A program made the translations under genes and the position numbers. The notes under the pieces were generated by a model, which worked only from the letters and a program-made list of their open reading frames with translations, did not search any database and was not told where the DNA came from. From Nakamurella flava (GTDB lineage: Bacteria; Actinomycetota; Actinomycetes; Mycobacteriales; Nakamurellaceae): DNA of 64,000 nt. Below are positions 4,087-58,465 of the stretch, piece after piece (the first letter of the stretch is position 1; each line of letters begins with the position of its first letter). The stretch lies in contig NZ_SZZH01000007.1 in the NCBI RefSeq assembly GCF_005298075.1, positions 1 to 64,000 of the forward strand. Reading direction: 5' to 3'.

Positions 4087-4665
4087 TCAGATGTACTGGC
4101 CGGTGCCGGACCCACCGCCCAACGGATGCCCGGGTCCGCCCTCCCCGCCGCCCAGGCCGGGCGGCAGCGCACCCCGACGCATCTGTTCGAGCTGTGCGCG
4201 GGCCGCCACCTGCTGGGCGACGAGCGCGGCCTGCAGTCCGTGGAACACACCCTCCAGCCAGCCGACCAGCTGGGCCTGGGCGATCCGCAGCTCGGACTCC
4301 GACGGCACCTCGTCCGAGTCGAACGGCAGGGACAGCCGTTCCAGTTCCTCCCGCAGATCCGGCGTCAGTCCCTCCTCCAGCTCCTTGATCGATCGCTGGT
4401 GGATCTCCTTGAGCCGGGCCCGGCTGGCCTCGTCCAGCGGCGCCGACCGGACCTCCTCGAGGAGCTGTTTGATCATGGTGCCGATCCGCATGACCTTGGC
4501 CGGCTCGCCGATCGCGTCGCCCGGCGACACCGGACCGTCCTGCCCCTGGTCGCCCGACGTGGGGCCGTCACCGGACCGTCCGTCGGTGGCCGGCACGTCG
4601 GCGTAGCCCACCGGCTGGCCGTCCGGGCCGATGACCACGACCTTCTGGTTCGGCGTCTCGGTCAC
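4087..4665 (-). CDS. bpa: Bacterial proteasome activator Bpa
   Basis: This 192-residue protein closely matches the actinobacterial proteasome activator Bpa/PafE (Mycobacterium tuberculosis Rv3780). The conserved core runs from EPAKVMRIGTMIKQLLEEVR through the helical segments LDEASRARLKEIHQ and LRIAQAQLVGWLEGVFHG to ARAQLEQMRRGALPPG. In the family this core forms a dodecameric ring that opens the 20S proteasome gate without ATP. The C-terminal tail is Gly-rich and ends GTGQYI, the position of the gate-opening GQYL motif, here with Ile for Leu. No proteasome or Pup-ligase gene lies in this window. The N-terminal 50 residues are variable, as in homologues. Confidence 0.93.
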   Translation of the reverse strand: MTETPNQKVVVIGPDGQPVGYADVPATDGRSGDGPTSGDQGQDGPVSPGDAIGEPAKVMRIGTMIKQLLEEVRSAPLDEASRARLKEIHQRSIKELEEGLTPDLREELERLSLPFDSDEVPSESELRIAQAQLVGWLEGVFHGLQAALVAQQVAARAQLEQMRRGALPPGLGGGEGGPGHPLGGGSGTGQYI

Positions 4666-4719
4666 GTCGTGTCTCCTATCGGTGGTGGTGCTGATCCGGA
4701 TGCGGACGGTACGGGTCCG

Positions 4720-5727
4720 TCAGCTGAACTGTTCCCCGCCGGGGGCCCGCAGCAGCACCTTGCCCAGATGTCCACCCTCGGCCAACCGGCGATGGCCCTG
4801 ACCGGCGTCGGACATCTCGATCACGCGGTCGATGACCGGGCGCACGCGACCCGCGGCGATCAGCGGCCACAGGTGCTCCACGACCGCCGTGACCACCTCG
4901 CCCTTGGACCCCGGACCGGTCACCGGACGGGACCGCAGCGCCGTCCCGATGACGCCGGCGCGTTTGCGCAGCAGCGCGCCGATGTCCAGTTCGGCCGTCG
5001 TCCCGCCCTGCATGCCGATGACGACGAGGCGGCCGCCGTCGGCCAGGGCGGCGACGTTGCGGGCCAGGTACTTGGCCCCCACCACGTCCAGGATGACGTC
5101 CGCGCCCCGGCCGTCGGTGGCCTGCTGGAGCGCCTCGACGAAGTCCTCGTCGCGGTAGTTGATGGTGATGTCGGCGCCGAGTTCGCGGCAGGCGGCCAGC
5201 GCCTCGGGCCGGGAGGCGGTCACCGCGACCGTCGCCCCCAGGGCCTTCGCCACCTGAATCGCCATCGTGCCGATCCCGGACGACCCGCCGTGGATCAGCA
5301 CCGTCTGCCCGGAGCGCAGCCCAGCGGTGAGGACCAGGTTCGACCAGACCGTGCAGGCGACCTCGGGCAGCCCGGCCGCGTCGACCAGATCGACCCCGGC
5401 CGGGACGGGCATGACCTGGGCGGCAGGCACGACGACCTTTTCCGCGTATCCGCCGCCGGCCAGCAACGCGCACACCGGCTCGCCGGTCGGCCACTCGGTG
5501 ACTCCGTCGCCGACCGCGCTGATCGTCCCCGAACACTCCAGCCCCAGGGTCGTCGACGCCCCCGGCGGCGGCGGGTAGTGCCCGGATGCCTGCAACAGGT
5601 CCGCCCGGTTCACCCCGGCCGCGGCGACGTCGATGACGACCTCACCGAGCCCCGGCTCGGGGTCGGGCACCTCGTTCCAGCCCAGCGTCGCCGGAGAACC
5701 CGGCTCGTCCACGGTCACCGCCCACAT
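4720..5727 (-). CDS. NAD(P)H:quinone oxidoreductase, MDR family
   Basis: This 335-residue zinc-independent medium-chain dehydrogenase/reductase belongs to the quinone oxidoreductase (Qor/PIG3) group. It has the N-terminal GroES-like domain (VDVAAAGVNRADLLQASGHY), the nucleotide-binding turn IHGGSSGIGTMAIQVAKALG near residues 144-163, and the DVILDVVGAKYLARN segment. The length is typical. It probably reduces quinones or related enones with NADPH in the cytoplasm. It lies 54 bp upstream of bpa on the same strand and could be its operon leader. Confidence 0.85.
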   Translation of the reverse strand: MWAVTVDEPGSPATLGWNEVPDPEPGLGEVVIDVAAAGVNRADLLQASGHYPPPPGASTTLGLECSGTISAVGDGVTEWPTGEPVCALLAGGGYAEKVVVPAAQVMPVPAGVDLVDAAGLPEVACTVWSNLVLTAGLRSGQTVLIHGGSSGIGTMAIQVAKALGATVAVTASRPEALAACRELGADITINYRDEDFVEALQQATDGRGADVILDVVGAKYLARNVAALADGGRLVVIGMQGGTTAELDIGALLRKRAGVIGTALRSRPVTGPGSKGEVVTAVVEHLWPLIAAGRVRPVIDRVIEMSDAGQGHRRLAEGGHLGKVLLRAPGGEQFS

Positions 5728-5821
5728 GGGCCCGAGGGTAATCCGCCTGACCGGGGGCCCGGCCGTGCCCTAGGTTCGGTCCACTCGCATCGGCCGCCCA
5801 ACCGGCGTCCCCTACCGCGCT

Positions 5822-5878
5822 ACTGGGCGCAACACGCCGTCTCTGCGACAGAACAGCGGCGGTCTTTACCCAGTCGCG
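5822..5878. repeat. Dispersed hairpin repeat, copy A
   Basis: This 57-bp element is nearly the same, base for base, as the one at 6134-6190: shared core GCGCAACACGCCG, then GCGACAGAA, then CAGCGGCGGTCTTTACC. It can fold through CTGGG/CCCAG and CGCCG/CGGCG pairs. Unlike the other copies, no intact gene ends beside it; it precedes the acetyltransferase remnant. Related elements lie at 7169-7229, 36288-36348 and 37964-38017. Confidence 0.7.
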
Positions 5879-8218: not shown

Positions 8219-8474
8219 GGCCCCTCCTCAGGACGGTGGCGATGTCGGCTGCCGCCGGATCACCGGTCGATCACCCGCGCAGGTGGCGGTGGCCACAGGT
8301 TAAGCGGTGGGGCCGACGGCGGCTCGGGCGCGGGTCGGGACGACACCCGATGAGGTTTCCGATCGGGTGAAGACGGCCGCTGATCTGCCCGGGCCGCTCG
8401 GCGGACCACGCACTGTGAAGGTCGGTGACTCTCGCGGCTGTGACCGGTCCGGCATTTTTGCCCGGGAGGAAAGT

Positions 8475-8489
8475 TTGCGCAATGGGCAA
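8475..8489. promoter_or_regulatory. Candidate TetR operator and promoter
   Basis: TTGCGCA-A-TGGGCAA is a 15-bp near-palindrome with one mismatch, ending 21 bp upstream of the TetR gene. TTGCGC can serve as a -35 box, with TTACTG 17 bp further on as a weak -10. A repressor bound here would block the promoter, which fits autoregulation of the TetR-MMPL operon. This is inference from position and symmetry. Confidence 0.45.
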
Positions 8490-8510
8490 GATCGTCGTTA
8501 CTGTGGCCCG

Positions 8511-9185
8511 GTGAGCACCTCCACCCCCACCGCCGAACCGGCCGTCGGCCTGCGCGAGCGCAAGAAGGACGCGACCCGGCGGGCGATGGCCGACGCGGCC
8601 CTGGCCCTGGTCGCCGAACGTGGCTACGACCACGTCACCGTGGCCGACATCGCCGAGCGGGTCGGCGTCTCCCGTCGCACCTTCTCCAACTACTTCTCCG
8701 GCAAGGCCGAGTGCCTGGTCGCCGTCAGCGCCGGCTGGCTGGACGACGTCCTGCAGACCGTCCGGCAGGCCCCGGCGAGGACGCCCCTCATCGAGGTGCT
8801 GGCCACCGCGCTCGAGCGGCTGGCCACCGACCTGCCGCATCGCTGGGAGCTGCTGCACGAGGTCTGCGAGGCCGAACCCGAGGTCCAGGCCATGAGCACG
8901 GCCCTGGAGACCGAGCTCGCCGCCGACCTCAGCCAGGCCCTCGGCGAGTTCCTCGACGTCCCCGCCGACGACCTGCAATTGCGCCTGTTCGCCGGCTACG
9001 CCCTGCTCGCCGGGGGCGAGTGTCTGCGCGACTGGTTCGACGCCGGTCGCCCCGACGGTCTGCTCGGCTTCCAGCAGCGCATCGCCCTGGCCTTCTCCTT
9101 CATCGACCTGACCGCCCTGCCCGGGGCCGCATCGCGTCCGGCCGCCCCCACCACCCGCCCCGCCCGATCCGACGGAGAGAACTGA
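8511..9185 (+). CDS. TetR-family transcriptional regulator
   Basis: This 224-residue repressor has a canonical TetR N-terminal helix-turn-helix: RERKKDATRRAMADAALALV, then VTVADIAERVGVSRRTFSNYF at about residues 42-62. The C-terminal ligand-binding part is variable. The start is the GTG at 8511, which gives the short leader STSTPTAEPAVG before the first DNA-binding helix. Its stop overlaps the ATG of the MMPL transporter by one base (TGATG), so the two are translationally coupled. By family precedent it should repress the exporter until the transported compound binds. Confidence 0.9.
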   Translation: MSTSTPTAEPAVGLRERKKDATRRAMADAALALVAERGYDHVTVADIAERVGVSRRTFSNYFSGKAECLVAVSAGWLDDVLQTVRQAPARTPLIEVLATALERLATDLPHRWELLHEVCEAEPEVQAMSTALETELAADLSQALGEFLDVPADDLQLRLFAGYALLAGGECLRDWFDAGRPDGLLGFQQRIALAFSFIDLTALPGAASRPAAPTTRPARSDGEN

Positions 9186-11602
9186 TGGCCACCTTCCTGT
9201 ACCGACTCGGACGGCTGGCCGTCGGTCACCGTCGCGCGTTCCTCATCGGCTGGCTGGTGATCTTCTTCGGGATGGGCACCGCCGCGGCCACCCTGGCCGG
9301 CACCTTCACCACCTCGCTGTCCATTCCGGGCACCCCCGCCCAGGCCGCCCTGGACGAGCTGAACGAGAAGATCCCCGGCTCCGGCGATGCCACCGGCCGG
9401 ATCGTCTTCGTCGCCCCCGAGGGCAAGACGTTGGCCGACCCGGCCTATCAGCAGGCCATCGGAACGGTCGTCAAGGAGGTCTCCGGGCTGCCCGGCGTGA
9501 CGTCGATCGTCGATCCGGCGACCGCACGCACCGTCTCGCCCGACCAGCGGGTCGGCTTCGCGACCGCGTCGTTCAAGGGGCAGCTCACCGAGATCCCGCT
9601 GGAGACCCAGAACGAGATCAAGACCATCGCGGACGCCAACCAGGTCGACGGTCTGCAGATCTTCCGCGGCGGCGGGACCGTTCCGCAGGCCCCGTCGGTC
9701 GGGTCCACCGAGGGGCTCGGCGTCATCGTCGCGCTGGTCGTCCTGATGATCACCTTCGGCTCGTTCGTGGCCGCCGGTCTGCCGATGCTGACCGCGCTGA
9801 TCGGGGTGGGCACCGGGGTGTCCGGCATCCTGTGGGCCTCATCGGCCATCGAGATGTCCAACACCGCACCGATCCTGGCCCTGATGCTGGGCCTGGCCGT
9901 CGGCATCGACTACGCGCTGTTCATCGTGTCCCGGCACCGCGCCCAGGTGAAGGGCGGGATGGCCATCGAGGAGTCGATCGCCCGGGCCAACGGCACCGCC
10001 GGCAGTGCCGTGGTGTTCGCCGGCCTGACCGTGCTCATCGCCCTGGCCGGGTTGTCGGTCGTCGGCATCCCGTTCCTGTCGATCATGGGGATCGCCGCCG
10101 CCGGCACCGTGGCCGTCGCCGTGCTGATCGCGATCACCCTGCTGCCCGCCCTGCTCGGCTTCGCCGGCGACAAGGTGCTGCCCCGCAAGGCGCGCGCTGC
10201 GGCCGCCGCCCTGCGCGACGGGTCGGCCGGGTCGTCGGCCACCGTCGAGCACCACGAGCCGAACCGGTGGATCCGGGCCATCGCCCGCAAGCCCGCGCTG
10301 TTCCTCGTCGGCGGCGTCGTCGCGATGGGCGTGCTGGCCATCCCCGTCACCTCGCTGCAGCTCGGCCTGCCGGACGACGGTTCTGCGTCCCCCGACACCA
10401 CCCAGCGGCAGGCCTACGACGCGGTCACCTCGTCGTTCGGCGCCGGGGCGAACGGGCCGCTGCTGGTCACGGTCGCGCTGAACCCGGGCACCGACCCGGC
10501 CTCGATGCAGCAGATCCTGGGCGGCGTGGCGCAGTCACTGCAGACCGCCAGCCCGGATGTCGCCGTGGCCCTCCCGGCCGGGGCCAGCCCGGACGGCAGC
10601 TACGGACTGATCACCGTCGTTCCGAAGTCCGGGCCGTCGGACGAGGCGACCGTCGACCTCGTCCACACCCTGCGCGATCAGGCCGGCCCGCTCGGCAGCC
10701 AGGTCGGCGCGACCCTGAAGGTGACCGGGCTGACCGCCGTGGCCATCGACATCTCCGACAAGCTGGCGTCGGCGCTGCCGGTGTACCTGCTGATCGTCGT
10801 CGGGTTGGCGTTGGTCCTGCTGCTGCTCGTCTTCCGGTCGATCGTCGTGCCGGTCGTCGCCGCCCTCGGCTTCCTGCTCTCCATCGGCGTCGCCTTCGGC
10901 GCCGTCGTCGCGGTCTACCAGTGGGGCTGGTTGTCGGCGATCTTCGGGGTGGACACCCCAGCGCCGATCATCAGCTTCCTGCCGATCCTGCTGATCGGCG
11001 TGCTGTTCGGCCTGGCCATGGACTACCAGGTGTTCATGGTGTCCGGTATGCGCGAGGCGTACGTGCACGGCGCCGACCCGAAGACCGCGGTGGTCACCGG
11101 TTTCGCCAACGGCTCCCGGGTCGTCACCGCCGCGGCGATCATCATGACGTCGGTATTCGCCGGCTTCATGCTGGCGCCGGACAAGATCATCGCCTCGATC
11201 GGGTTCGCGCTGGGTCTGGGTGTGCTGGTCGACGCGTTCGTCGTCCGCATGACGCTGACCCCGGCGATCATGCGGCTGCTCGGCCAGGCCGCCTGGTACC
11301 TGCCGGCCTGGCTGGCCCGCATCCTGCCGAACGTCGACATCGAGGGCGAGAAGCTGCTGGCCCAGCTGGACGCCGACCGTCCCGCTCCCGCGATGGTCGG
11401 GGTGGGCGCTGGTGGGGCCTCGGGTCCGGACTCCGACGGTGCGACGGTCCGCGGTGCGCACGCCCGGGTCGACGGCCAGCCGGCCTCGGGGCTGACCGCA
11501 CCGCTGGACGGGGCCGCGAGCGACGGGTCGACCAGCAACGGCGCCGCGACCGACGGGTCGGCCGCCCAGCCGGCCGGCGGACGGCACCGCGCCCGGGACT
11601 GA
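9185..11602 (+). CDS. MMPL-family RND transporter
   Basis: This 805-residue membrane transporter has two MMPL halves, each with an extracytoplasmic loop after the first helix and a bundle of five or six helices. The proton-relay helices are visible in LMLGLAVGIDYALFIVSRHR in the first half and GVLFGLAMDYQVFMVSGMRE in the second; the Asp-Tyr pairs are conserved for proton coupling. The C-terminal 90 residues are a low-complexity Gly/Ala/Ser tail. Family members export lipids or lipophilic drugs. Control by the upstream coupled TetR gene points to efflux; the substrate is unknown. Confidence 0.9.
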   Translation: MATFLYRLGRLAVGHRRAFLIGWLVIFFGMGTAAATLAGTFTTSLSIPGTPAQAALDELNEKIPGSGDATGRIVFVAPEGKTLADPAYQQAIGTVVKEVSGLPGVTSIVDPATARTVSPDQRVGFATASFKGQLTEIPLETQNEIKTIADANQVDGLQIFRGGGTVPQAPSVGSTEGLGVIVALVVLMITFGSFVAAGLPMLTALIGVGTGVSGILWASSAIEMSNTAPILALMLGLAVGIDYALFIVSRHRAQVKGGMAIEESIARANGTAGSAVVFAGLTVLIALAGLSVVGIPFLSIMGIAAAGTVAVAVLIAITLLPALLGFAGDKVLPRKARAAAAALRDGSAGSSATVEHHEPNRWIRAIARKPALFLVGGVVAMGVLAIPVTSLQLGLPDDGSASPDTTQRQAYDAVTSSFGAGANGPLLVTVALNPGTDPASMQQILGGVAQSLQTASPDVAVALPAGASPDGSYGLITVVPKSGPSDEATVDLVHTLRDQAGPLGSQVGATLKVTGLTAVAIDISDKLASALPVYLLIVVGLALVLLLLVFRSIVVPVVAALGFLLSIGVAFGAVVAVYQWGWLSAIFGVDTPAPIISFLPILLIGVLFGLAMDYQVFMVSGMREAYVHGADPKTAVVTGFANGSRVVTAAAIIMTSVFAGFMLAPDKIIASIGFALGLGVLVDAFVVRMTLTPAIMRLLGQAAWYLPAWLARILPNVDIEGEKLLAQLDADRPAPAMVGVGAGGASGPDSDGATVRGAHARVDGQPASGLTAPLDGAASDGSTSNGAATDGSAAQPAGGRHRARD

Positions 11603-49242: not shown

Positions 49243-49512
49243 GCCAGGAATAAGTTCGTGGCGCGATCAAATCGTTACGCTTCCATCCCGTCTGACGGGC
49301 CTTCTCCGGTTGCGGCGGTTGCCGGCCGGTCTACTGTGACGACCATCGCCAGGGCCGAGAGTCGGCCTGGGTGAGCAGCTGTCCAGGTGGACGACGGTGC
49401 AGCGCCGCCCGCCCCGGGAGATGGCCGCCGGCCATTTTCCGTCGATTCCGGTTCGCAGCCGGCAGCCGGCGAGACCCCCGCGGTTCGAGGCTTTCCGGCG
49501 GGAGGGTTCGCC

Positions 49513-51096
49513 ATGGCCACAACGACGCAAACCGGTACCACCAGCAGTAGCGGTGGCGCTCGAGTTGCGGTGCAGAAGTTCGGGACGTTCCTGTCCGGGA
49601 TGATCATGCCGAATATCGGTGCGTTCATCGCGTGGGGTTTGATCACGGCCCTGTTCATCGAGAAGGGCTGGTTGCCGGTCGACAAGATCGGTGGGTGGGG
49701 TGACTACGCCGACGGCGGTCTGGTCGGCCCGATGGTGCGGTTCCTGTTGCCGATCCTGATCGCGGTGCAGGGTGGCCGGATGATCTATGGCACCCGGGGT
49801 GCGGTGGTCGGCGGTATCGCGACGATGGGCGCGATCATGGCCACGACGCAGCCGATGTTCCTGGGGGCGATGATCTTCGGTCCGTTGGCGGCGTGGTTGA
49901 TGAAGAAGGTCGACGCGCTGTGGGACGGCAAGATCAAGCCGGGTTTTGAGATGTTGGTGAACAACTTCTCGGCCGGCATCCTGGGCGCTGGTTTGGCCGT
50001 GTTCGGGTTGTACGTCTTCGGGCCGATCGTGGATGGGATCTCGAACGCGTTCGGTAACGGCGTGAACTGGTTGATCGAGCACAGTGTGCTGCCGTTGGCC
50101 AGTGTGATCATCGAGCCGGCCAAGGTGCTGTTCCTGAACAACGCGATCAACCACGGGGTGTTGACGCCGCTGGGTATCCAGCAGTCCACCGAGCAGGGCA
50201 AGTCCATCCTGTTCCTGTTGGAGGCCAACCCCGGTCCGGGTGCGGGCCTACTGCTCGCGTTCTGTGTGTTCGGCGTGGGCATGGCCCGCAGCACGGCCCC
50301 GGCGGCGTTCATCATCCAGTTCTTCGGCGGTATCCACGAGATCTATTTCCCGTACGTGCTGATGAAGCCGGTCCTGATCCTGGCCACGATCGCCGGTGGC
50401 ATGGTCGGCATCCTGACCCTGGTGATCTTCAACGCGGGTCTGGTGGGTCCGGCGGCGCCGGGATCGATCATCGCGGTCATGTTGGCGACCCCGGGTGGCA
50501 GTTTCGTCGGGGTCATCTTGTCGGTGGTGTTGTCGGCCGCGACGTCGTTCATCATCGCGTCGGTCATCCTGCGGGGCAGTCGCCGCAGCATGCTCGCGGC
50601 GGAGGAGGCCGAGGGCGGTGGGTTGGCCGCGGCCACCTCGCAGATGGAGGCCATGAAGGGCAAGAAGTCGTCGGTGTCGGGGGTGCTGAACCGGGAGGCT
50701 CTGGACGAGGCGTCGGCGTCGGGGATGACGCCCGCGCAGATGGACGCGGCCGATGGGATGCACCGCACCGGGGGTGGCACGAGTGTGGCGGCCCGGCCGA
50801 TCAGCAAGATCGTGTTCGCCTGTGATGCCGGGATGGGCTCGAGTGCGATGGGCGCGTCGGTGTTGCGGAACAAGATCAAGAAGGCCGGTTTCGGTGATGT
50901 CAGCGTGACCAATGTGGCGATCGCGAACCTGACCGATGACATCGATCTGATCGTCACCCAGGAGACCTTGACCCCGCGGGCCAAAGGCATGGCGCCCAGC
51001 GCCGAACACGTCTCGGTCAGCAACTTCATGAACAGCCCGCGGTACGACGAGATCGTCTCGCACCTACGGGAGACGAACGGAAACCCCTCGACCTGA
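49513..51096 (+). CDS. mtlA: PTS mannitol-specific transporter, EIICB
   Basis: This 527-residue mannitol PTS permease has a membrane EIIC domain (residues about 20-350) with VQKFGTFLSGMIMPNIGAFIAWG, FGGIHEIYFPYVLMKP and NNAINHGVLTPLG. A linker follows, then a cytoplasmic EIIB domain whose phosphorylated Cys is Cys437 in IVFACDAGMGSSAMG. The EIIA domain is encoded separately. It imports mannitol and phosphorylates it to mannitol 1-phosphate. The ATG at 49513 has GGGAGGG upstream. The gene uses more GGT, GTG and TTG codons than its neighbours. Confidence 0.95.
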   Translation: MATTTQTGTTSSSGGARVAVQKFGTFLSGMIMPNIGAFIAWGLITALFIEKGWLPVDKIGGWGDYADGGLVGPMVRFLLPILIAVQGGRMIYGTRGAVVGGIATMGAIMATTQPMFLGAMIFGPLAAWLMKKVDALWDGKIKPGFEMLVNNFSAGILGAGLAVFGLYVFGPIVDGISNAFGNGVNWLIEHSVLPLASVIIEPAKVLFLNNAINHGVLTPLGIQQSTEQGKSILFLLEANPGPGAGLLLAFCVFGVGMARSTAPAAFIIQFFGGIHEIYFPYVLMKPVLILATIAGGMVGILTLVIFNAGLVGPAAPGSIIAVMLATPGGSFVGVILSVVLSAATSFIIASVILRGSRRSMLAAEEAEGGGLAAATSQMEAMKGKKSSVSGVLNREALDEASASGMTPAQMDAADGMHRTGGGTSVAARPISKIVFACDAGMGSSAMGASVLRNKIKKAGFGDVSVTNVAIANLTDDIDLIVTQETLTPRAKGMAPSAEHVSVSNFMNSPRYDEIVSHLRETNGNPST

Positions 51097-51150: not shown

Positions 51151-51300
51151 CCGGCATGGACCCGCCGTCGGGTAGCGCGGCCGCCGGTCTTCTCCGGTCG
51201 CCCGGCGGGACCGCCGATCCGCTGCGAGACTGACCGAGACCCATGATGTCCCAGTGAATGTGACTGCGTTTGGACCGAGAAGAAGGGAACCCACCACGTC

Positions 51301-51738
51301 ATGAGTGACATTTTGAGCCCCGCCCAGATCAAGGTTCCGGGGACGGCGACGTCGAAGGACGAGGCGATCCGGGAGGCCGGTCAGATCCTGGTCGATGCTG
51401 GTGCGGTGAGTCCGGCGTACATCGATGCGATGTTCGAGCGGGAGCGGTCGGTGTCGACGTACATGGGGAATTTCCTGGCCATTCCGCACGGGACGAACGA
51501 GGCCAAGGAGGAAATCAGCAAGTCGGCGTTGTCGGTGGTCAAGTACGACCCGCCGATCGACTGGGACGGCAATGAGGTGCGGTTCGCGGTGGGGATCGCC
51601 GGTTATGAGGGTGGGCATCTGGAGATCCTGTCCAAGATCGCGATCATCTTCAGTGATGAGGATGAGGTCGCCAAGTTGGTGCAGGCGCAGTCGTCGCAGG
51701 AGTTGTACGGGATGCTCGACTCGGTCAACGAGGACTGA
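51301..51738 (+). CDS. mtlF: PTS mannitol-specific EIIA component
   Basis: This 145-residue EIIA domain of the mannitol/fructose type has the active-site His63 in NFLAIPHGTNEAK. HPr phosphorylates it, and it passes phosphate to Cys437 of MtlA. The length is standard for a free EIIA. The nearest SD-like AAGGG is about 13 bases from the ATG, rather far. A terminator lies upstream, and mtlD follows after 5 bp. Confidence 0.95.
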   Translation: MSDILSPAQIKVPGTATSKDEAIREAGQILVDAGAVSPAYIDAMFERERSVSTYMGNFLAIPHGTNEAKEEISKSALSVVKYDPPIDWDGNEVRFAVGIAGYEGGHLEILSKIAIIFSDEDEVAKLVQAQSSQELYGMLDSVNED

Positions 51739-51743
51739 GCGGG

Positions 51744-52904
51744 GTGGCTGGGGACAAGGTCGCGGTCCATTTCGGTGGTGGCAACATCGGCCGCGGTTTC
51801 GTGGGGTTGATCCTGCATCGGGCCGGGTATCGCCTGGTGTTCGCTGATGTGGCCGATGTGCTGATCGATGCGTTGAATGCGGCGGACTCCTATCAGGTGC
51901 GGGAGGTCGGTCAGGACTCGCGGACCGAGACGGTCGATGGTTTCACCGGGATCAACAGTCGCACTGATGAGGCCGCGGTTATTGAGGCGATTGCCGGCGC
52001 GGATGTGGTGACCACGGCGGTCGGGCCGACGGTGCTGAAGTTCGTGGCCCCGGTGATCGCCGCGGGGCTGCGGAAGCGGGACCCGGCCGCGGCGCCGCTG
52101 GTGGTGATGGCGTGTGAGAACGCGATCAACGCCACTGATGTCCTCAAGAACCACATCCGCGACGGGGCCGACGATTTCGACGTTTTGAACGGCCGGGCGG
52201 TGTTCGCCAACACCGCGGTCGACCGGATCGTGCCCGGCCAACCGCATGACGGGCTGGACGTGACGGTGGAGACGTATTTCGAGTGGGCCATCGAGCGGGG
52301 CCCGTTCAACGGTGACGAGCCGCAGATCCCGGACGCGACGTTCGTGGACGATCTGGCCCCGTACATCGAGCGGAAACTGTTCACCGTGAACACCGGTCAT
52401 GCGGCGACCGCGTATTTCGGGTTCGTCCGCGGGATCACCAAACTGTCCGATGCCCTGGATGATCCGGAGGTGCGGACCAACGTGCAGGGCGTGTTGGCCG
52501 AGACCAAGGCGTTGTTGGTGGCCAAACACGAATTCACCGCGCAGGCGCAGCAGGCCTACATCGACAAGATCATCACCCGGTTCGAGAACCCGTACCTGCC
52601 GGACACGGTGGACCGGGTCGGGCGGCAACCGCTGCGCAAACTGTCCCGCCACGAACGCCTGATCGGCCCGGCCGCCGAACTGGCCGAACGGGGCATCCAC
52701 CCGCCGGAGTTCCTGCTACGGGCGGTCGAGGCCGCGTTGCGGTTCGACGTCCCCGCCGACCCGGAAAGCGTCCAGTTGCAGAAAGCGCTGCGCACCCGCA
52801 CCCCCGACGAACTGGTCCGCGAGATCACCGGTCTGCAGCCCGACCACCCCCTGTACGACGACGTCCTCAGCGTCTTCGGACGCCGGGTCGCGGCGGTCTC
52901 CTGA
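51744..52904 (+). CDS. mtlD: Mannitol-1-phosphate 5-dehydrogenase
   Basis: This 386-residue polyol dehydrogenase has the N-terminal NAD motif AVHFGGGNIGRGFVGLILHRAG, VVMACENAINATDVLKNHI and TVNTGHAATAYFGFVRG, all typical of MtlD. It oxidises mannitol 1-phosphate to fructose 6-phosphate with NAD+. The GTG start lies 5 bp after the mtlF stop, so they are coupled. The product is the substrate of the phosphofructokinase encoded next. Confidence 0.95.
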   Translation: MAGDKVAVHFGGGNIGRGFVGLILHRAGYRLVFADVADVLIDALNAADSYQVREVGQDSRTETVDGFTGINSRTDEAAVIEAIAGADVVTTAVGPTVLKFVAPVIAAGLRKRDPAAAPLVVMACENAINATDVLKNHIRDGADDFDVLNGRAVFANTAVDRIVPGQPHDGLDVTVETYFEWAIERGPFNGDEPQIPDATFVDDLAPYIERKLFTVNTGHAATAYFGFVRGITKLSDALDDPEVRTNVQGVLAETKALLVAKHEFTAQAQQAYIDKIITRFENPYLPDTVDRVGRQPLRKLSRHERLIGPAAELAERGIHPPEFLLRAVEAALRFDVPADPESVQLQKALRTRTPDELVREITGLQPDHPLYDDVLSVFGRRVAAVS

Positions 52905-52962: not shown

Positions 52963-53018
52963 ATGGGACCCGGACATCGCCCTACGGCACGCCGAGTACC
53001 GGGAAGCAGGAACGACAC

Positions 53019-55265
53019 ATGGTCGAGCAGGCCCCTTCGACGTCGCGGCGCCGGGTCGCCGTTCTGACCAGCGGTGGCGATGCGCAGGGGATGAACCCGG
53101 CGGTGCGTGGTGTGGTGCGGACCGGGTTGAACCGGGGCGCGGAGATGTTCGCCGTGTACGAGGGCTACCAGGGGCTGGTCGACGGCGGGGAGGCCATCCG
53201 GCACGTCGAGTGGGACGATGTCAGCGGCGTCCTCAACCGCGGTGGCACCGTGATCGGGACGGCGCGGTCCAAGGACTTCCGGGAGCGTGATGGTCGGCGG
53301 ACCGCCGTCAAGCATCTGCTGGAGCACGGGATCGACCGGCTCGTGGTCATCGGTGGGGACGGCAGCCTGTCCGGCGCCGACCTGCTGCGGTCGGAGTGGG
53401 CGTCCCTGGTCCAGGAGCTGGCCGATCGGGGTGAGATCGATCAGGACACGGCCGACCGGCATCCGGCCCTGATGATCGCCGGGCTGGTCGGGTCGATCGA
53501 CAACGACATGCTCGGCACCGACATGACGATCGGGGCGGACAGCGCCCTGCACCGCATCGTGGAGGCGATCGACTCGATCGGGTCGACGGCGGCCAGTCAT
53601 CAGCGCAGTTTCGTGGTCGAGGTGATGGGCCGGCACTGCGGGTATCTGGCCCTGATGGGGGCGATCGCCGGCGGCGCCGATTACGTGTTGATTCCGGAGG
53701 ACCCGCCGCTGCCGGGGTGGGAGCAGAAGATGTGTGCGTTGCTGGCCTCGGGACGGGAGGCCGGGCGCCGGAACAGCATCGTGATCGTCGCCGAGGGCGC
53801 CCACGACCGGGACAACAACCCGATCACCAGCGAGTACGTGCTCAACGTCATCCGCGACACCCTGAACGAGGATGTGCGGTTGACGATCCTCGGGCACGTC
53901 CAGCGGGGTGGCGACCCCAGCGCCTACGACCGGTACACGAGTTCGATCCTGGGGTACGCGGCGTTGGAGGAGGTGCTCAGCGCCAAGCCCGACGGGGTGT
54001 CCAAGCTGATCGGCACCCGCGGGAACCGGGTGTCCAAGGTGCCGTTGATGGAATCGGTGGCCCAGACGCGGGCGTTGGCCGACGCGATCGCGGCGAAGGA
54101 TTTCAACACCGCGATGGCGATGCGCGGCAACGAGTTCACCGAGATGGAACACATCTTCCACGCGATCTCGCACGCCCTGCCGACGGTCACCCGCAAACGG
54201 AAGTCCACCCGGCTCGGGATCCTCAACGTCGGTGGTCTGGCCCCGGGGATGAACGCCGTCGCCCGCGCCGCGGTCCGGTTGGGTCTGGACCGTGGGCACA
54301 CCATGGTCGGCATCTCCAACAGCTTCCAGGGCCTGGTCGACGACGAGGTCCGCGAACTGCAGTGGGGTGATGTCGAGGGGTGGACCAGCCGGGGCGGCGC
54401 CGAGCTGGGCATCAGCCGGCGGGTGCCCACGGTCAAGGATCTGTACGCCATCGGCCGGGGCATCGAGAAGCACGGGCTGGACGGTTTGCTGATCGTCGGC
54501 GGGTGGGACGCGTTCGCCGCGGTCAGCACGATGCGCGCCGAGCAGGACCGGTACCCGGCGTTCCAGGTGCCGATGATCGTGCTGCCGGCGACCATCGACA
54601 ACAACATGCCGGCCTCCGAACAGTCGGTGGGGGCGGACACCGCCCTGAACCTGATCGTCGATTCCATCGACCGGATCCGGCAGACCGGCACCGCCTCCAA
54701 GCGGGTGTTCGTGGTCGAGACGATGGGCGGGTACTGCGGCTATCTGGCGTTGATGGGCGGCCTGTCCGGTGGGGCGGTGAAGGTGTACCTGCACGAGGAG
54801 GGCATCACGCTCAAGGACATCGCCGCCGACGTGGAGAACATGGTCGATGCCTTCCGCGCCGGGCAGCGGTTGTTCCTGACGGTCCGCAACGAGAAGGCCA
54901 GCCCGATGTACACGAGCGACTTCCTGGTGCGGGTGTTCGAGCAGGAAAGCCAGGACCTCTACGACGCGCGCGAGATCGTGCTGGGTCAGACCCAGCAGGG
55001 TGGCAGCCCCACCCCGATCGACCGGATCCTGGGCACCCGGCTGGCCGCGCATTCCATCGACTGGCTCAGCCACCAGGTCGACCTGCACAAGCACGACGCC
55101 GCGATGATCGGCATGCAGGAAGGCACCCCCCGGATCCGCACGCTGCGGCGGGTGGAGGAGATGGCCGACTGGGAACACCGCCGCCCGGTCCGGCAGTGGT
55201 GGATGGAACTGCGACCGGTCATCGACGTGCTCGCCGCCCGACTGGCCCTGCCCGAGAACGCCTGA
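53019..55265 (+). CDS. pfkA: 6-phosphofructokinase, duplicated eukaryotic type
   Basis: This 748-residue enzyme has two PFK domains in one chain, twice the usual bacterial length. The N-half (12-385) has full catalytic motifs: SGGDAQGMNPAVR, GGDGS (112-116), GSIDND (158-163, base Asp161), EVMGRHCGYLA and LGHVQRGG. The C-half (398-748) is altered in the manner of animal PFK: GGWDA (494-498) for GGDGS, TIDNN (525-529) and LGQTQQGGSPTPIDR, with a WWMELRPV end. Many of these strings match what I recall of human PFKM. It should use ATP to make fructose 1,6-bisphosphate, with the C-half probably regulatory. It follows mtlD and would draw off its product. Confidence 0.93.
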   Translation: MVEQAPSTSRRRVAVLTSGGDAQGMNPAVRGVVRTGLNRGAEMFAVYEGYQGLVDGGEAIRHVEWDDVSGVLNRGGTVIGTARSKDFRERDGRRTAVKHLLEHGIDRLVVIGGDGSLSGADLLRSEWASLVQELADRGEIDQDTADRHPALMIAGLVGSIDNDMLGTDMTIGADSALHRIVEAIDSIGSTAASHQRSFVVEVMGRHCGYLALMGAIAGGADYVLIPEDPPLPGWEQKMCALLASGREAGRRNSIVIVAEGAHDRDNNPITSEYVLNVIRDTLNEDVRLTILGHVQRGGDPSAYDRYTSSILGYAALEEVLSAKPDGVSKLIGTRGNRVSKVPLMESVAQTRALADAIAAKDFNTAMAMRGNEFTEMEHIFHAISHALPTVTRKRKSTRLGILNVGGLAPGMNAVARAAVRLGLDRGHTMVGISNSFQGLVDDEVRELQWGDVEGWTSRGGAELGISRRVPTVKDLYAIGRGIEKHGLDGLLIVGGWDAFAAVSTMRAEQDRYPAFQVPMIVLPATIDNNMPASEQSVGADTALNLIVDSIDRIRQTGTASKRVFVVETMGGYCGYLALMGGLSGGAVKVYLHEEGITLKDIAADVENMVDAFRAGQRLFLTVRNEKASPMYTSDFLVRVFEQESQDLYDAREIVLGQTQQGGSPTPIDRILGTRLAAHSIDWLSHQVDLHKHDAAMIGMQEGTPRIRTLRRVEEMADWEHRRPVRQWWMELRPVIDVLAARLALPENA

Positions 55266-55520
55266 TCCGGGCGGCGGAGCGTGGCGCGGGGCGGACCGAG
55301 TCACCTGAACGGCTGGTCGGCGGAGTGAAACCGTCACGATGAGTCGACGGGCGGAACGGGCAGCAGGTACCAAAGGTATGGCGCGCCCTCCCTGCTCGGC
55401 CGGGTGCGTCGAGGTATCTGTAGGGGTATCCAGGCCTGTGCTCCCGAGCTGTCACGGACGGTCATCGCAAATGGTGTGTGCTCAACCCGACGTACGGGAC
55501 CCCCGGCCCGGAGTGGGTCG

Positions 55521-56246
55521 GTGACCGCGGGCCCCGGCCGCTTCGGACAGCCCGACCTTCCCGACCGGCCGCCGCCGGCGGGCCTGTTCACCCGCGGCTA
55601 CGACAAGGCGAGCACCGACGAGCTGGTCAACGAGCTCCTCGCCCAGATCCAGGAACGCACCACCCGGCTCTACACGGTGGAGCGGGAGAACCGCCGGCTG
55701 CGGGCCGAACGGTCGGCCGAGGTCCACGCCGCCCGGGTCTCGGAGGTGGAGGACAGCATCGCCGTGCTCTCCACGGCGCAGCAGGACGCGGACCGGGTGA
55801 TGGCCGAGGCCGACGCCTACCGCGAACAGGTGGCCGCCGAGGCCGAGCGGATGCGCAAGGAGGCCCGTCGCGCCGCCGAGGCGATCCTGGCCGAGGCGCA
55901 CGCCCGGTCGCAGGAGGTCGACCGCCGCGAGCAGCAGATCCAGCTCACCCAGGACGAGCTGCGCCGGCAGACCGAGTACCTGCGGTCCGTCCGGGACGCA
56001 GCCGGCACCCAGGTGCTGCGGTTCCTCAACGGCATCGTCGACCACGTGGCGGCCGAGTTCGGGGCGGCCGACCCGGCGGCGGTGACCAGCGGTGCCGCCC
56101 AGCCGCCGCGGGACCCCGGGTCACCGGGGCGGCCGTTCCCGCAGTTGCCCCCGGCCCCCGGCGTGCCCGGAGCCGCGGCGTCGCCGACGCGGGCCCGTCG
56201 TCGTCGCGAACCCCGCGGCCACGTCCGGCACCTCGCCGGACGCTGA
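55521..56246 (+). CDS. DivIVA-like coiled-coil protein
   Basis: This 241-residue protein has an N-terminal motif FTRGYDKASTDELVNELLAQIQERTTRL that fits the DivIVA/Wag31-related domain. A long alpha-helical coiled coil (about residues 45-165; charged, Ala-rich, with repeated EAERMRKEARRAAE) follows, then a Pro-rich disordered tail. Such proteins mark curved membranes at poles or septa, or are its relatives of unknown role. The GTG at 55521 has GGAG eight bases upstream. The 255 bp before it contain GGTATC/GGTACC boxes but no gene. Confidence 0.75.
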   Translation: MTAGPGRFGQPDLPDRPPPAGLFTRGYDKASTDELVNELLAQIQERTTRLYTVERENRRLRAERSAEVHAARVSEVEDSIAVLSTAQQDADRVMAEADAYREQVAAEAERMRKEARRAAEAILAEAHARSQEVDRREQQIQLTQDELRRQTEYLRSVRDAAGTQVLRFLNGIVDHVAAEFGAADPAAVTSGAAQPPRDPGSPGRPFPQLPPAPGVPGAAASPTRARRRREPRGHVRHLAGR

Positions 56247-56847: not shown

Positions 56848-57429
56848 TCACCGCTCGACGATCACATCGACCAGCCGCGTGGTCTGCGGCCCGAGGTTCG
56901 ACCACCCGCCCGAGGTTTCCAGCAACGCGATCGCCGAGGTGGGGAACCGGTCGCCGAGCCGTCGCAGGGCCTCGTCGTCGGAGCCGGGGCCGGCGAGTTC
57001 ATCGGCCAGGTCGGGCAGGCCGGGGAAGTGCCCGACGACCAGCACCGAGCGCACCGGGGACGGGAGGGCGCGCAGCAGGGGCAGCAGTTCCTCATAGCCG
57101 GCGCCGTAGATCTCCGGGCGGTACTGCACCCGGTCGGCGGTGACCATGCCGTCGAGGACCCCGCTGGCGGCCAGCGTCTCCCGGGTGCGGGTGGCCGTCG
57201 AGCAGAGCACCACGTCGAAGGCGCCGATCTCCCGGGCCAGGCGGTCGCCGGCCAGTCCGGCCTGCCGCCGGCCCCGCGGGGCCAGCGGGCGATCGTGGTC
57301 GGCCACCTCGTCCGGGTAGGCCGATTTGCCGTGCCGGAGCAGGGCGAGCCGCCGTCCGGTGGACGGTGCGTCGGAATCCGAGGCGGACTGTTGTGCGGTC
57401 GGAGCGGCGGCGAGCGGGATCGTCGTCAT
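56848..57429 (-). CDS. sixA: SixA-like histidine phosphatase
   Basis: This 193-residue histidine-phosphatase protein has the catalytic RHGKS motif in RLALLRHGKSAYPDEVADHD, then the pair of Arg in CSTATRTRETL and the second catalytic His in VLVVGHFPGLP. It resembles the phosphohistidine phosphatase SixA. By analogy it may dephosphorylate PTS or two-component phosphohistidines; with a mannitol PTS nearby that is possible but unproven. The ATG has GAGG just upstream. Confidence 0.82.
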   Translation of the reverse strand: MTTIPLAAAPTAQQSASDSDAPSTGRRLALLRHGKSAYPDEVADHDRPLAPRGRRQAGLAGDRLAREIGAFDVVLCSTATRTRETLAASGVLDGMVTADRVQYRPEIYGAGYEELLPLLRALPSPVRSVLVVGHFPGLPDLADELAGPGSDDEALRRLGDRFPTSAIALLETSGGWSNLGPQTTRLVDVIVER

Positions 57430-57520
57430 GCCTCATCCTGCGGTATGCGGCCACTGCCGCGATCATGACCATGCCCGAACGGGTGGCGTGGGGGTCGTGT
57501 CGAGACGAAGGAGGGTGCCG

Positions 57521-58465
57521 GTGAGCCCGGTCGCCAGCGAGATCACCCTGCGGTTCCTGGCCGCGCCCACCGATGTGGCCGTGGACGGGGCCGTGCACGG
57601 CGGCAAGGTCCTGGAGTGGATCGACAAGGCCGCCTACGCCTGCGCGGTCGGCTGGAGCGGCCACTACTGCGTGACGGTGTACGTCGGGAACGTGCACTTC
57701 TCCCGGCCCATCGCGTCCGGCCATCTGGTCGAGGTGCACGCCCGGCTGATCAACACCGGCCGCTCCAGCATGGACATCCAGGTGACGGTGTCCTCGGCCG
57801 ATCCGCAGGTCGGCGACTTCTCGCTGGCCACCACCTGCCTGGTCATCTTCGTGGCGGTGGACGGCGAGGGGCGGCCGACCGCGGTGCCGACCTGGGCGCC
57901 GCGGACGTCGCTGGAGCAGCGGTTGCAGGCCAACGTGCTGGAACGGGTCCAGTTGCGCGCCGACATCGAGGCGGCGATGAAGGAGCAGCAGTACACCGAG
58001 GCCGGGACCGCACCGCAGGTGACGTTGCGGTTCCTGGCCGCGCCGACCGACGTCAACTGGGGCGGCAAGGTCCACGGCGGCACGGTGATGCGCTGGATCG
58101 ACGAGGCCGCCTACGCGTGTGGGGCGAACTGGAGCGGCGGGGAGTGCATCGCGACCTACTCCGGCGGGGTGCGGTTCTACCGGCCGATCCTCATCGGCCA
58201 CCTGGTGGAGGTGACGGCCCGGCTGCTGCGGACCGGGCGCACGTCCATGCACATCAGCGTGCACGTCAGCTCCGGTGATCCGAAGGCGCCGCAGATGCGG
58301 CTGACCACCCACAGCCTCACCGTGTTCGTGGCCCTGGGGGAGGACAAGCGGGCCCGTCAGGTGCCGCGCTGGCGGCCCGTGAGCGCCGAGGACAAGGCGC
58401 TGGAGGCCCACGCCCTGCACCTCATCGACGTGCGGTCGCGGGCCGCGCAGCCGCCGTTGCAGTGA
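57521..58465 (+). CDS. Double-hotdog acyl-CoA thioesterase
   Basis: This 314-residue protein contains two hotdog domains in tandem (about residues 5-135 and 160-290). Their active-site helices are AVHGGKVLEWIDKAAYACA and KVHGGTVMRWIDEAAYACG. The two repeats are very alike, each opening with TLRFLAAPTDV, as in BACH/ACOT7-type thioesterases that cleave long-chain acyl-CoA. The GTG at 57521 follows AAGGAGG. Confidence 0.87.
   Translation: MSPVASEITLRFLAAPTDVAVDGAVHGGKVLEWIDKAAYACAVGWSGHYCVTVYVGNVHFSRPIASGHLVEVHARLINTGRSSMDIQVTVSSADPQVGDFSLATTCLVIFVAVDGEGRPTAVPTWAPRTSLEQRLQANVLERVQLRADIEAAMKEQQYTEAGTAPQVTLRFLAAPTDVNWGGKVHGGTVMRWIDEAAYACGANWSGGECIATYSGGVRFYRPILIGHLVEVTARLLRTGRTSMHISVHVSSGDPKAPQMRLTTHSLTVFVALGEDKRARQVPRWRPVSAEDKALEAHALHLIDVRSRAAQPPLQ

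Follow-up and report, generated by a model that had tools for sequence, protein, structure and literature searches.

The window examined here is the stretch of 64,000 nucleotides at positions 1 to 64,000 of contig NZ_SZZH01000007.1 of Nakamurella flava, and it contains, at 53019..55265 on the forward strand, the gene of a tandem, eukaryotic-type ATP-dependent 6-phosphofructokinase (PFK) of 748 amino acids. Taken as a whole, our analysis makes it probable that this enzyme is a bacterial tandem PFK-1 coupled to mannitol catabolism, and that it descends from one bacterial fusion which the ancestor of fungi and animals acquired later. If this is true, the PFK-1 fusion, a textbook eukaryotic regulatory innovation, took place in bacteria.

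Identification of the tandem phosphofructokinase

The gene is a single uninterrupted frame with an ATG start, and an AGGA that may serve as ribosome-binding site lies 7 nt upstream (53008..53011, forward strand). The protein matches TIGR02478 ("6PF1K_euk") with 986.4 bits against a cut-off of 708.4, from position 1 to 742 of the 744-position model and over residues 11 to 741 of the protein, and such an end-to-end match above the cut-off excludes chance. Pfam PFK (PF00365) matches two separate stretches. The N-terminal catalytic half covers residues ~10 to 385 (53046..54173); the second PFK match belongs to a degenerate, presumably regulatory C-terminal half (residues ~396 to 741; 54204..55241), which clusters with eukaryotic C-halves. 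The best match in the PDB is human PFKP (738 bits), the identity with human platelet PFK is 45%, the same as that of the yeast alpha piece with the human enzyme, and the predicted structure superposes on human PFK-1 with 1.3 Å across 731 residues. A first-pass annotation of this DNA had described a 748-codon frame with two PFK domains and the motifs GGDGS, GSIDND, LGQTQQGG and WWMELRPV (the last at residues 727 to 734), all of which are present; its view of the protein as a full-length homologue of the eukaryotic fusion enzyme, with a catalytic N-half and a divergent C-half, is supported. The contig that carries the gene is 186.7 kb long, and the completeness of the genome is rated at 100%. 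Eukaryotic contamination was rejected on the size of the contig, the bacterial mannitol genes 5' of the gene, a GC content of 69 to 70% that falls within the range of the window, and the existence of cultured isolates.

The window enzyme shares with the eukaryotic PFK-1 proteins (human PFKP, PFKM and PFKL, yeast alpha and beta) the tandem halves, the active site in the N-half and a C-half without D103, whereas the N-terminal domain of the fungal enzymes is absent from it. Among bacteria, a tandem PFK of Chloroflexus has been noted before: in the relevant passages of PMC8004040, the 747-residue Cagg_2702 of Chloroflexus aggregans is likewise placed in 6PF1K_euk, but its genome also has a 356-residue bacterial-type PFK, and its transcript counts are low. 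Among the papers listed by searches of open-licence PubMed Central (the top 8 to 25 rows of each), it is the only one we found that treats a bacterial tandem PFK, and we found none that places the fusion in bacteria, which does not prove that there is none. The Chloroflexus sequences in our tree (L086, L038) lie near the clade of the window enzyme. The single-domain bacterial PfkA of E. coli and Geobacillus differs from all of these in having half the length and no second half.

Active-site and pocket residues of the two halves

Residues were numbered according to E. coli PfkA in an alignment of 95 tandem representatives (89 bacterial, 6 eukaryotic), and the numbered residues were assigned to the active site and the sugar-phosphate pocket by what we take to be their roles in PfkA. 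The N-half of the window enzyme retains D103, D127, D129, R162, R171, R243, H249 and R252 and matches E. coli PfkA at 16 of the 18 checked positions; it differs at position 73 (F to S) and at position 125 (T to S), where S is found in 92 of the 95 N-halves. D103 corresponds to D114 in GGDGS (residues 112 to 116; 53352..53366), and D127 and D129 to D161 and D163 in GSIDND (residues 158 to 163; 53490..53507). With these residues in place, the N-half would phosphorylate fructose 6-phosphate with ATP.

The C-half carries W103, D127, N129, R162, G171, E222, R243, Q249 and Q252. The position of D103 is occupied by W496 in GGWDA (54498..54512), that of D127 by D527 in PATIDNN (54585..54605) and that of R171 by G571 in MGG (54723..54731), while in LGQTQQGG (residues 655 to 662; 54981..55004) Q657 replaces H249 and Q660 replaces R252. 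In yeast and mammals, according to a passage of PMC12203962, the C-half loses its ATP site and keeps the sugar site, which serves fructose 2,6-bisphosphate. The window enzyme follows this pattern in the change of D103 to W and the retention of R162, E222 and R243, and departs from it in the change of H249 to Q. Every one of the 89 bacterial C-halves has lost D103, and R162 (87), E222 (89), R243 (89), H249 (75) and R171 (64) are kept. Judged by these residues, bacterial C-halves too have lost the nucleotide side of the former active site and retained its sugar-phosphate side. The C-half would then be a dead copy with a largely preserved sugar-phosphate pocket, presumably an allosteric site. The same comparison indicates that the bacterial pockets are partly nearer to the ancestral pocket than the eukaryotic ones, because E222 and R243 are mostly lost in the latter: the C-halves of 120 eukaryotic proteins have R162 in 119 and H249 in 120 cases, but E222 in 23 and R243 in 17 (mostly K).

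In 120 near relatives of the window enzyme, the C-half invariably has R162, E222 and R243 and W in place of D103, and two unusual residues, G171 (109/120) and Q249 (111/120), are nearly as constant. The glycine corresponding to G571 (54729-54731) is also present in all of the 120 eukaryotic C-halves compared. It is likely to be a convergent change of the pocket, since the trees keep the clade of the window enzyme and the eukaryotes apart; this shared residue may be part of the reason why the first-pass annotation was reminded of human PFKM.

One fusion, probably in bacteria

Of 151 tandem proteins, 95 were kept as representatives after removal of near-copies and short sequences, with the same 6 eukaryotic proteins before and after. 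Both halves were placed in joint trees, in which each half serves as root for the other. The first joint tree held 39 of the 89 bacterial representatives, the 6 eukaryotic ones and 13 of 45 single-domain or partial PFKs, and the second held 24 bacterial, 6 eukaryotic and 6 single-domain PFKs. An enlarged both-halves set combined 23 bacterial sequences and 9 of the 30 sequences that represent the closest relatives of the Chloroflexota sequence L102 with 6 eukaryotic and 4 single-domain PFKs; a reduced set lacked L105, L094, L100, the single-domain rows and the fastest quarter of the columns. Supports are quoted from the second joint tree unless stated; those of the enlarged set may be shifted near its new root.

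The N-halves of bacteria and eukaryotes fall without exception into a single clade and their C-halves likewise into a second one, with supports of 97 and 100 in the first tree and of 100/96 and 100/100 in the second. Therefore, bacterial and opisthokont tandem PFKs share a single fusion. The first-pass annotation had named as the contrary outcome a recent duplication that would place both halves inside ordinary actinobacterial single-domain PFKs, and the trees show otherwise: the window N-half groups with eukaryotic N-halves, the window C-half with eukaryotic C-halves, and the single-domain PFKs from the order of the window genome (L140, L141, L145, L144, L108) stand outside both clades. In favour of the idea that an actinobacterial single-domain PFK was duplicated independently and merely resembles the eukaryotic enzyme, nothing was found beyond the common PFK domain, and we consider it extremely improbable. 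In the tree of tandem representatives, the window enzyme and those of four related genomes form a group of 5 rows with support 100, within a clade that also contains Accumulibacter/Contendobacter, Propionibacteriaceae and Actinomycetaceae; a second actinobacterial clade is separate, which points to lateral spread.

Eukaryotic PFKs have been described as having arisen when a gene of prokaryotic type was duplicated and fused (in passages of PMC2990764, PMC11609450 and PMC12203962), and pervasive transfer of PFK between bacteria and eukaryotes has been reported, with reference to Bapteste and others, in a passage of PMC12203962. In both halves of our trees, a Chloroflexota group (L099, L102, L103) and then L105 branch off before the eukaryotes and the remaining bacteria (supports 97/93 and 91/89 in the N-half, 100/96 and 98/86 in the C-half), and the fungal and animal enzymes nest inside the bacterial tandem PFKs in both halves of the unconstrained trees. 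The best 120 relatives of L102 that were examined are Anaerolineae, Caldilineae and other Chloroflexota where named, apart from one named Deltaproteobacteria; four of them (P0194, P0213, P0237, P0238) also have a precomputed match to PF00781, the diacylglycerol kinase catalytic domain, besides PFK. The early branching of this group agrees with an independent character, R252, which is present in 9/9 single-domain PFKs, in 95/95 N-halves and in 118/120 C-halves near L102. Among the 89 bacterial C-half representatives R occurs at this position in three only, namely L099, L102 and L103, and Q in 79, as it does in 120/120 eukaryotic C-halves. The first-pass annotation had left two origins side by side, transfer from a eukaryote or a bacterial source; with moderate support, the nesting in both halves favours the second, and the fusion is probably of bacterial origin and was later acquired by eukaryotes. 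The halves would have been joined in a single event, for which relatives of Chloroflexota are the most likely bacteria, and the tandem enzyme would have spread laterally among bacteria and been acquired by an ancestor of fungi and animals.

The reverse course, in which the fusion arose in early eukaryotes, was transferred to bacteria once or more and then spread among them, seems unlikely to us, although it would fit the patchy bacterial distribution described below. When the bacteria were constrained together in both halves of the enlarged set, the cost was 43.7 log-likelihood units and the constraint was rejected by the approximately unbiased (AU) test (p 0.030); the early Chloroflexota group lies outside the eukaryotes in both halves, and R252 of the C-half is confined to it. 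Eukaryotic C-halves are also among the longer branches, which are expected to be pulled towards the root, yet they remain nested. Several points weigh against a bacterial origin. With one half alone the AU test leaves the bacteria as a single clade unrejected (p 0.083 for the C-half, 0.134 for the N-half), and so does the reduced set (p 0.079), in which the branching order is unchanged. The nesting of eukaryotes in the C-half would vanish without the early Chloroflexota group, and the two halves place the eukaryotes differently: near Lentisphaerota/Bacteroidota or Bacteroidota/Spirochaetota in the N-half, beside all later bacteria in the C-half. In slight conflict with the early branching, T125 of the N-half is retained in L094, L096 and L105 but lost in the early group. 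The bootstrap of the second tree did not reach full convergence. As to whether a single gene or two PFK paralogues gave rise to the halves, their joining has a support of 22 relative to the single-domain rows in the first tree, and E. coli PfkA is separate from the other single-domain rows in the second. Finally, the eukaryotes in the trees are fungi and vertebrates only. Wider sampling was sought, and no amoebozoan or other protist sequence was among the matches listed (best 120); in these 120 eukaryotic rows the named ones are yeasts, vertebrates and one yeast-like row labelled Cerrena zonata, and the unnamed ones share at least 72% identity with yeast beta.

Distribution among bacteria

The protein search gave at least 7999 relatives at E 0.001 (7999/7999 scored candidates passing), of which the best 120 were examined. 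A scan of genome contigs with the single protein as query gave no match, whereas a scan with the family alignment succeeded: at least 589 of at least 596 matched stretches encode relatives. The best 80 of these loci come from Actinomycetota, Chloroflexota, Pseudomonadota (Accumulibacter, Contendobacter), Bacteroidota, Spirochaetota, Cyanobacteriota, Acidobacteriota, Myxococcota, Lentisphaerota and unassigned records. The premise of the first-pass annotation that bacterial ATP-dependent PFKs are single-domain enzymes does not hold, with tandem PFKs in Actinomycetota, Chloroflexota and other phyla, nor is the window enzyme exceptional for a bacterium, given its relatives in several phyla. For the same reason "eukaryotic-type" in database names is misleading.

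Counted by genome, a tandem PFK above the cut-off occurs in 6/61 relatives, in 21/346 genomes of the phylum of the window genome (Actinomycetota), in 19/201 of Chloroflexota, seeds included, and in 7/145 of the phylum of the Lentisphaerota locus, 2 of them seeds; in the phyla of the Accumulibacter and cyanobacterial loci it was found in the seeds alone (1/249 and 1/117). The family is widespread yet patchy in bacteria. In the genus of the window genome 4/17 genomes have it, and the remaining 13 give weak PFK matches far below the tandem-PFK cut-off, so the tandem ATP-dependent PFK may be an accessory enzyme in this genus. Cultured strains with a tandem PFK include Arsenicicoccus bolidensis DSM 15745 and Propionicicella superfundia DSM 22317, among others. 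One or two single-domain PFK-like genes adjoin the tandem gene in a cyanobacterium and in several Chloroflexota (L041 at 8359-10898, L038, L049, L054, L055, L058, L104; L063 at 4561-5877); considered as a possible trace of the duplication in Chloroflexota, these genes match either half only weakly.

Possible regulation through the C-half

In human PFKL, according to a passage of PMC12203962, an inhibitory C-terminal tail of about 20 residues stabilises the T state. The window protein differs from eukaryotic PFK-1 in lacking such a long tail: it ends 8 residues past position 740, and its predicted local distance difference test score (pLDDT) is below 50 from residue 743. Its C-half pocket also differs, with D instead of S at position 127 and Q instead of H at 249, neither position varying among the 120 eukaryotic proteins. 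In yeast, a C-half serine and histidine are presumably needed for fructose 2,6-bisphosphate; among the literature matches listed, neither these residues nor those of the extra nucleotide sites N1 and N2 of the fungal and animal enzymes were found. A PFK-2 domain (PF01591), in a further difference from eukaryotes, was not found above the cut-off in the window genome (best E 0.24), nor in 14 control genomes, so that this search has no positive control. Because of D127 and Q249 in the pocket and the lack of a PFK-2 domain above the cut-off, a response of the window enzyme to fructose 2,6-bisphosphate appears unlikely, and the C-half may respond to another sugar phosphate.

We lean towards the view that, the PFK-1 fusion being bacterial, the pocket of the dead C-half was already allosteric there for some other ligand, such as fructose 6-phosphate or fructose 1,6-bisphosphate, and was adopted for fructose 2,6-bisphosphate after the eukaryotic acquisition. 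It is conceivable, if rather doubtful, that the C-half in the lineage of the window enzyme is no longer a ligand site and serves tetramer stability only; the changes at positions 171 and 249 in near relatives would agree with this, but R162, E222 and R243 are kept, and D103 is W, in every one of these relatives. With the bacterial relatives, some of them cultured, it becomes possible to test how PFK-1 allostery originated, by separating effectors that date from the fusion from eukaryotic additions.

The mannitol locus and other genes

The PFK gene lies 3' of three mannitol genes on the same strand. They encode an MtlA-like EIICB of the mannitol phosphotransferase system (PTS) (49387..51096 from the listed start of the open reading frame, with an in-frame ATG at 49513; NF011663, 596 bits, cut-off 589), an MtlF-like PTS EIIA (51301..51738; PF00359) and the mannitol-1-phosphate 5-dehydrogenase MtlD (51744..52904; NF002652, 450.5 bits, cut-off 356), and 114 nt separate mtlD from the PFK gene. 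The product of MtlD is fructose 6-phosphate. The route would lead from mannitol through mannitol 1-phosphate (PTS) and fructose 6-phosphate (MtlD) to fructose 1,6-bisphosphate (tandem PFK). G002 and G012 have the same mtlA-EIIA-mtlD neighbours, and the shorter stretch of G088 includes mtlD and part of EIIA; mtlD is present in 3/17 genomes of the genus, each with a tandem PFK. G009 counts against the coupling, as it has a tandem PFK and a search for mtlD in this genome (88% complete) did not find it. The other PF00365 PFK of the window genome is of the pyrophosphate (PPi)-dependent type (690 bits, cut-off 395), and no single-domain ATP-dependent PFK of the PF00365 superfamily was found there, PfkB-type kinases not having been searched for. 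From this gene content, the window enzyme is probably the ATP-dependent PFK for mannitol catabolism, the predicted module bringing its own, and the separate PPi-dependent PFK would serve the rest of glycolysis. Promoter and terminator scans at the locus gave nothing above chance.

The same genome has a second mannitol set, at L186 4305-8128 (G000:C1, ~66.3-70.1 kb), with mtlA, two EIIA genes and mtlD and without a PFK gene. Its DNA is 92.5% identical to window positions 49552-51080 and 95.5% identical to 51281-52887, and the frame that flanks it on the other side reads as a putative GntR-type regulator. In the window, the PFK gene is followed by a 280-residue frame with a charged middle (55404-56246, forward strand), for which Pfam and NCBIfam gave no match. 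Another doubled enzyme lies nearby at 57326-58465 on the forward strand, where two tandem 4HBT thioesterase domains share one frame.
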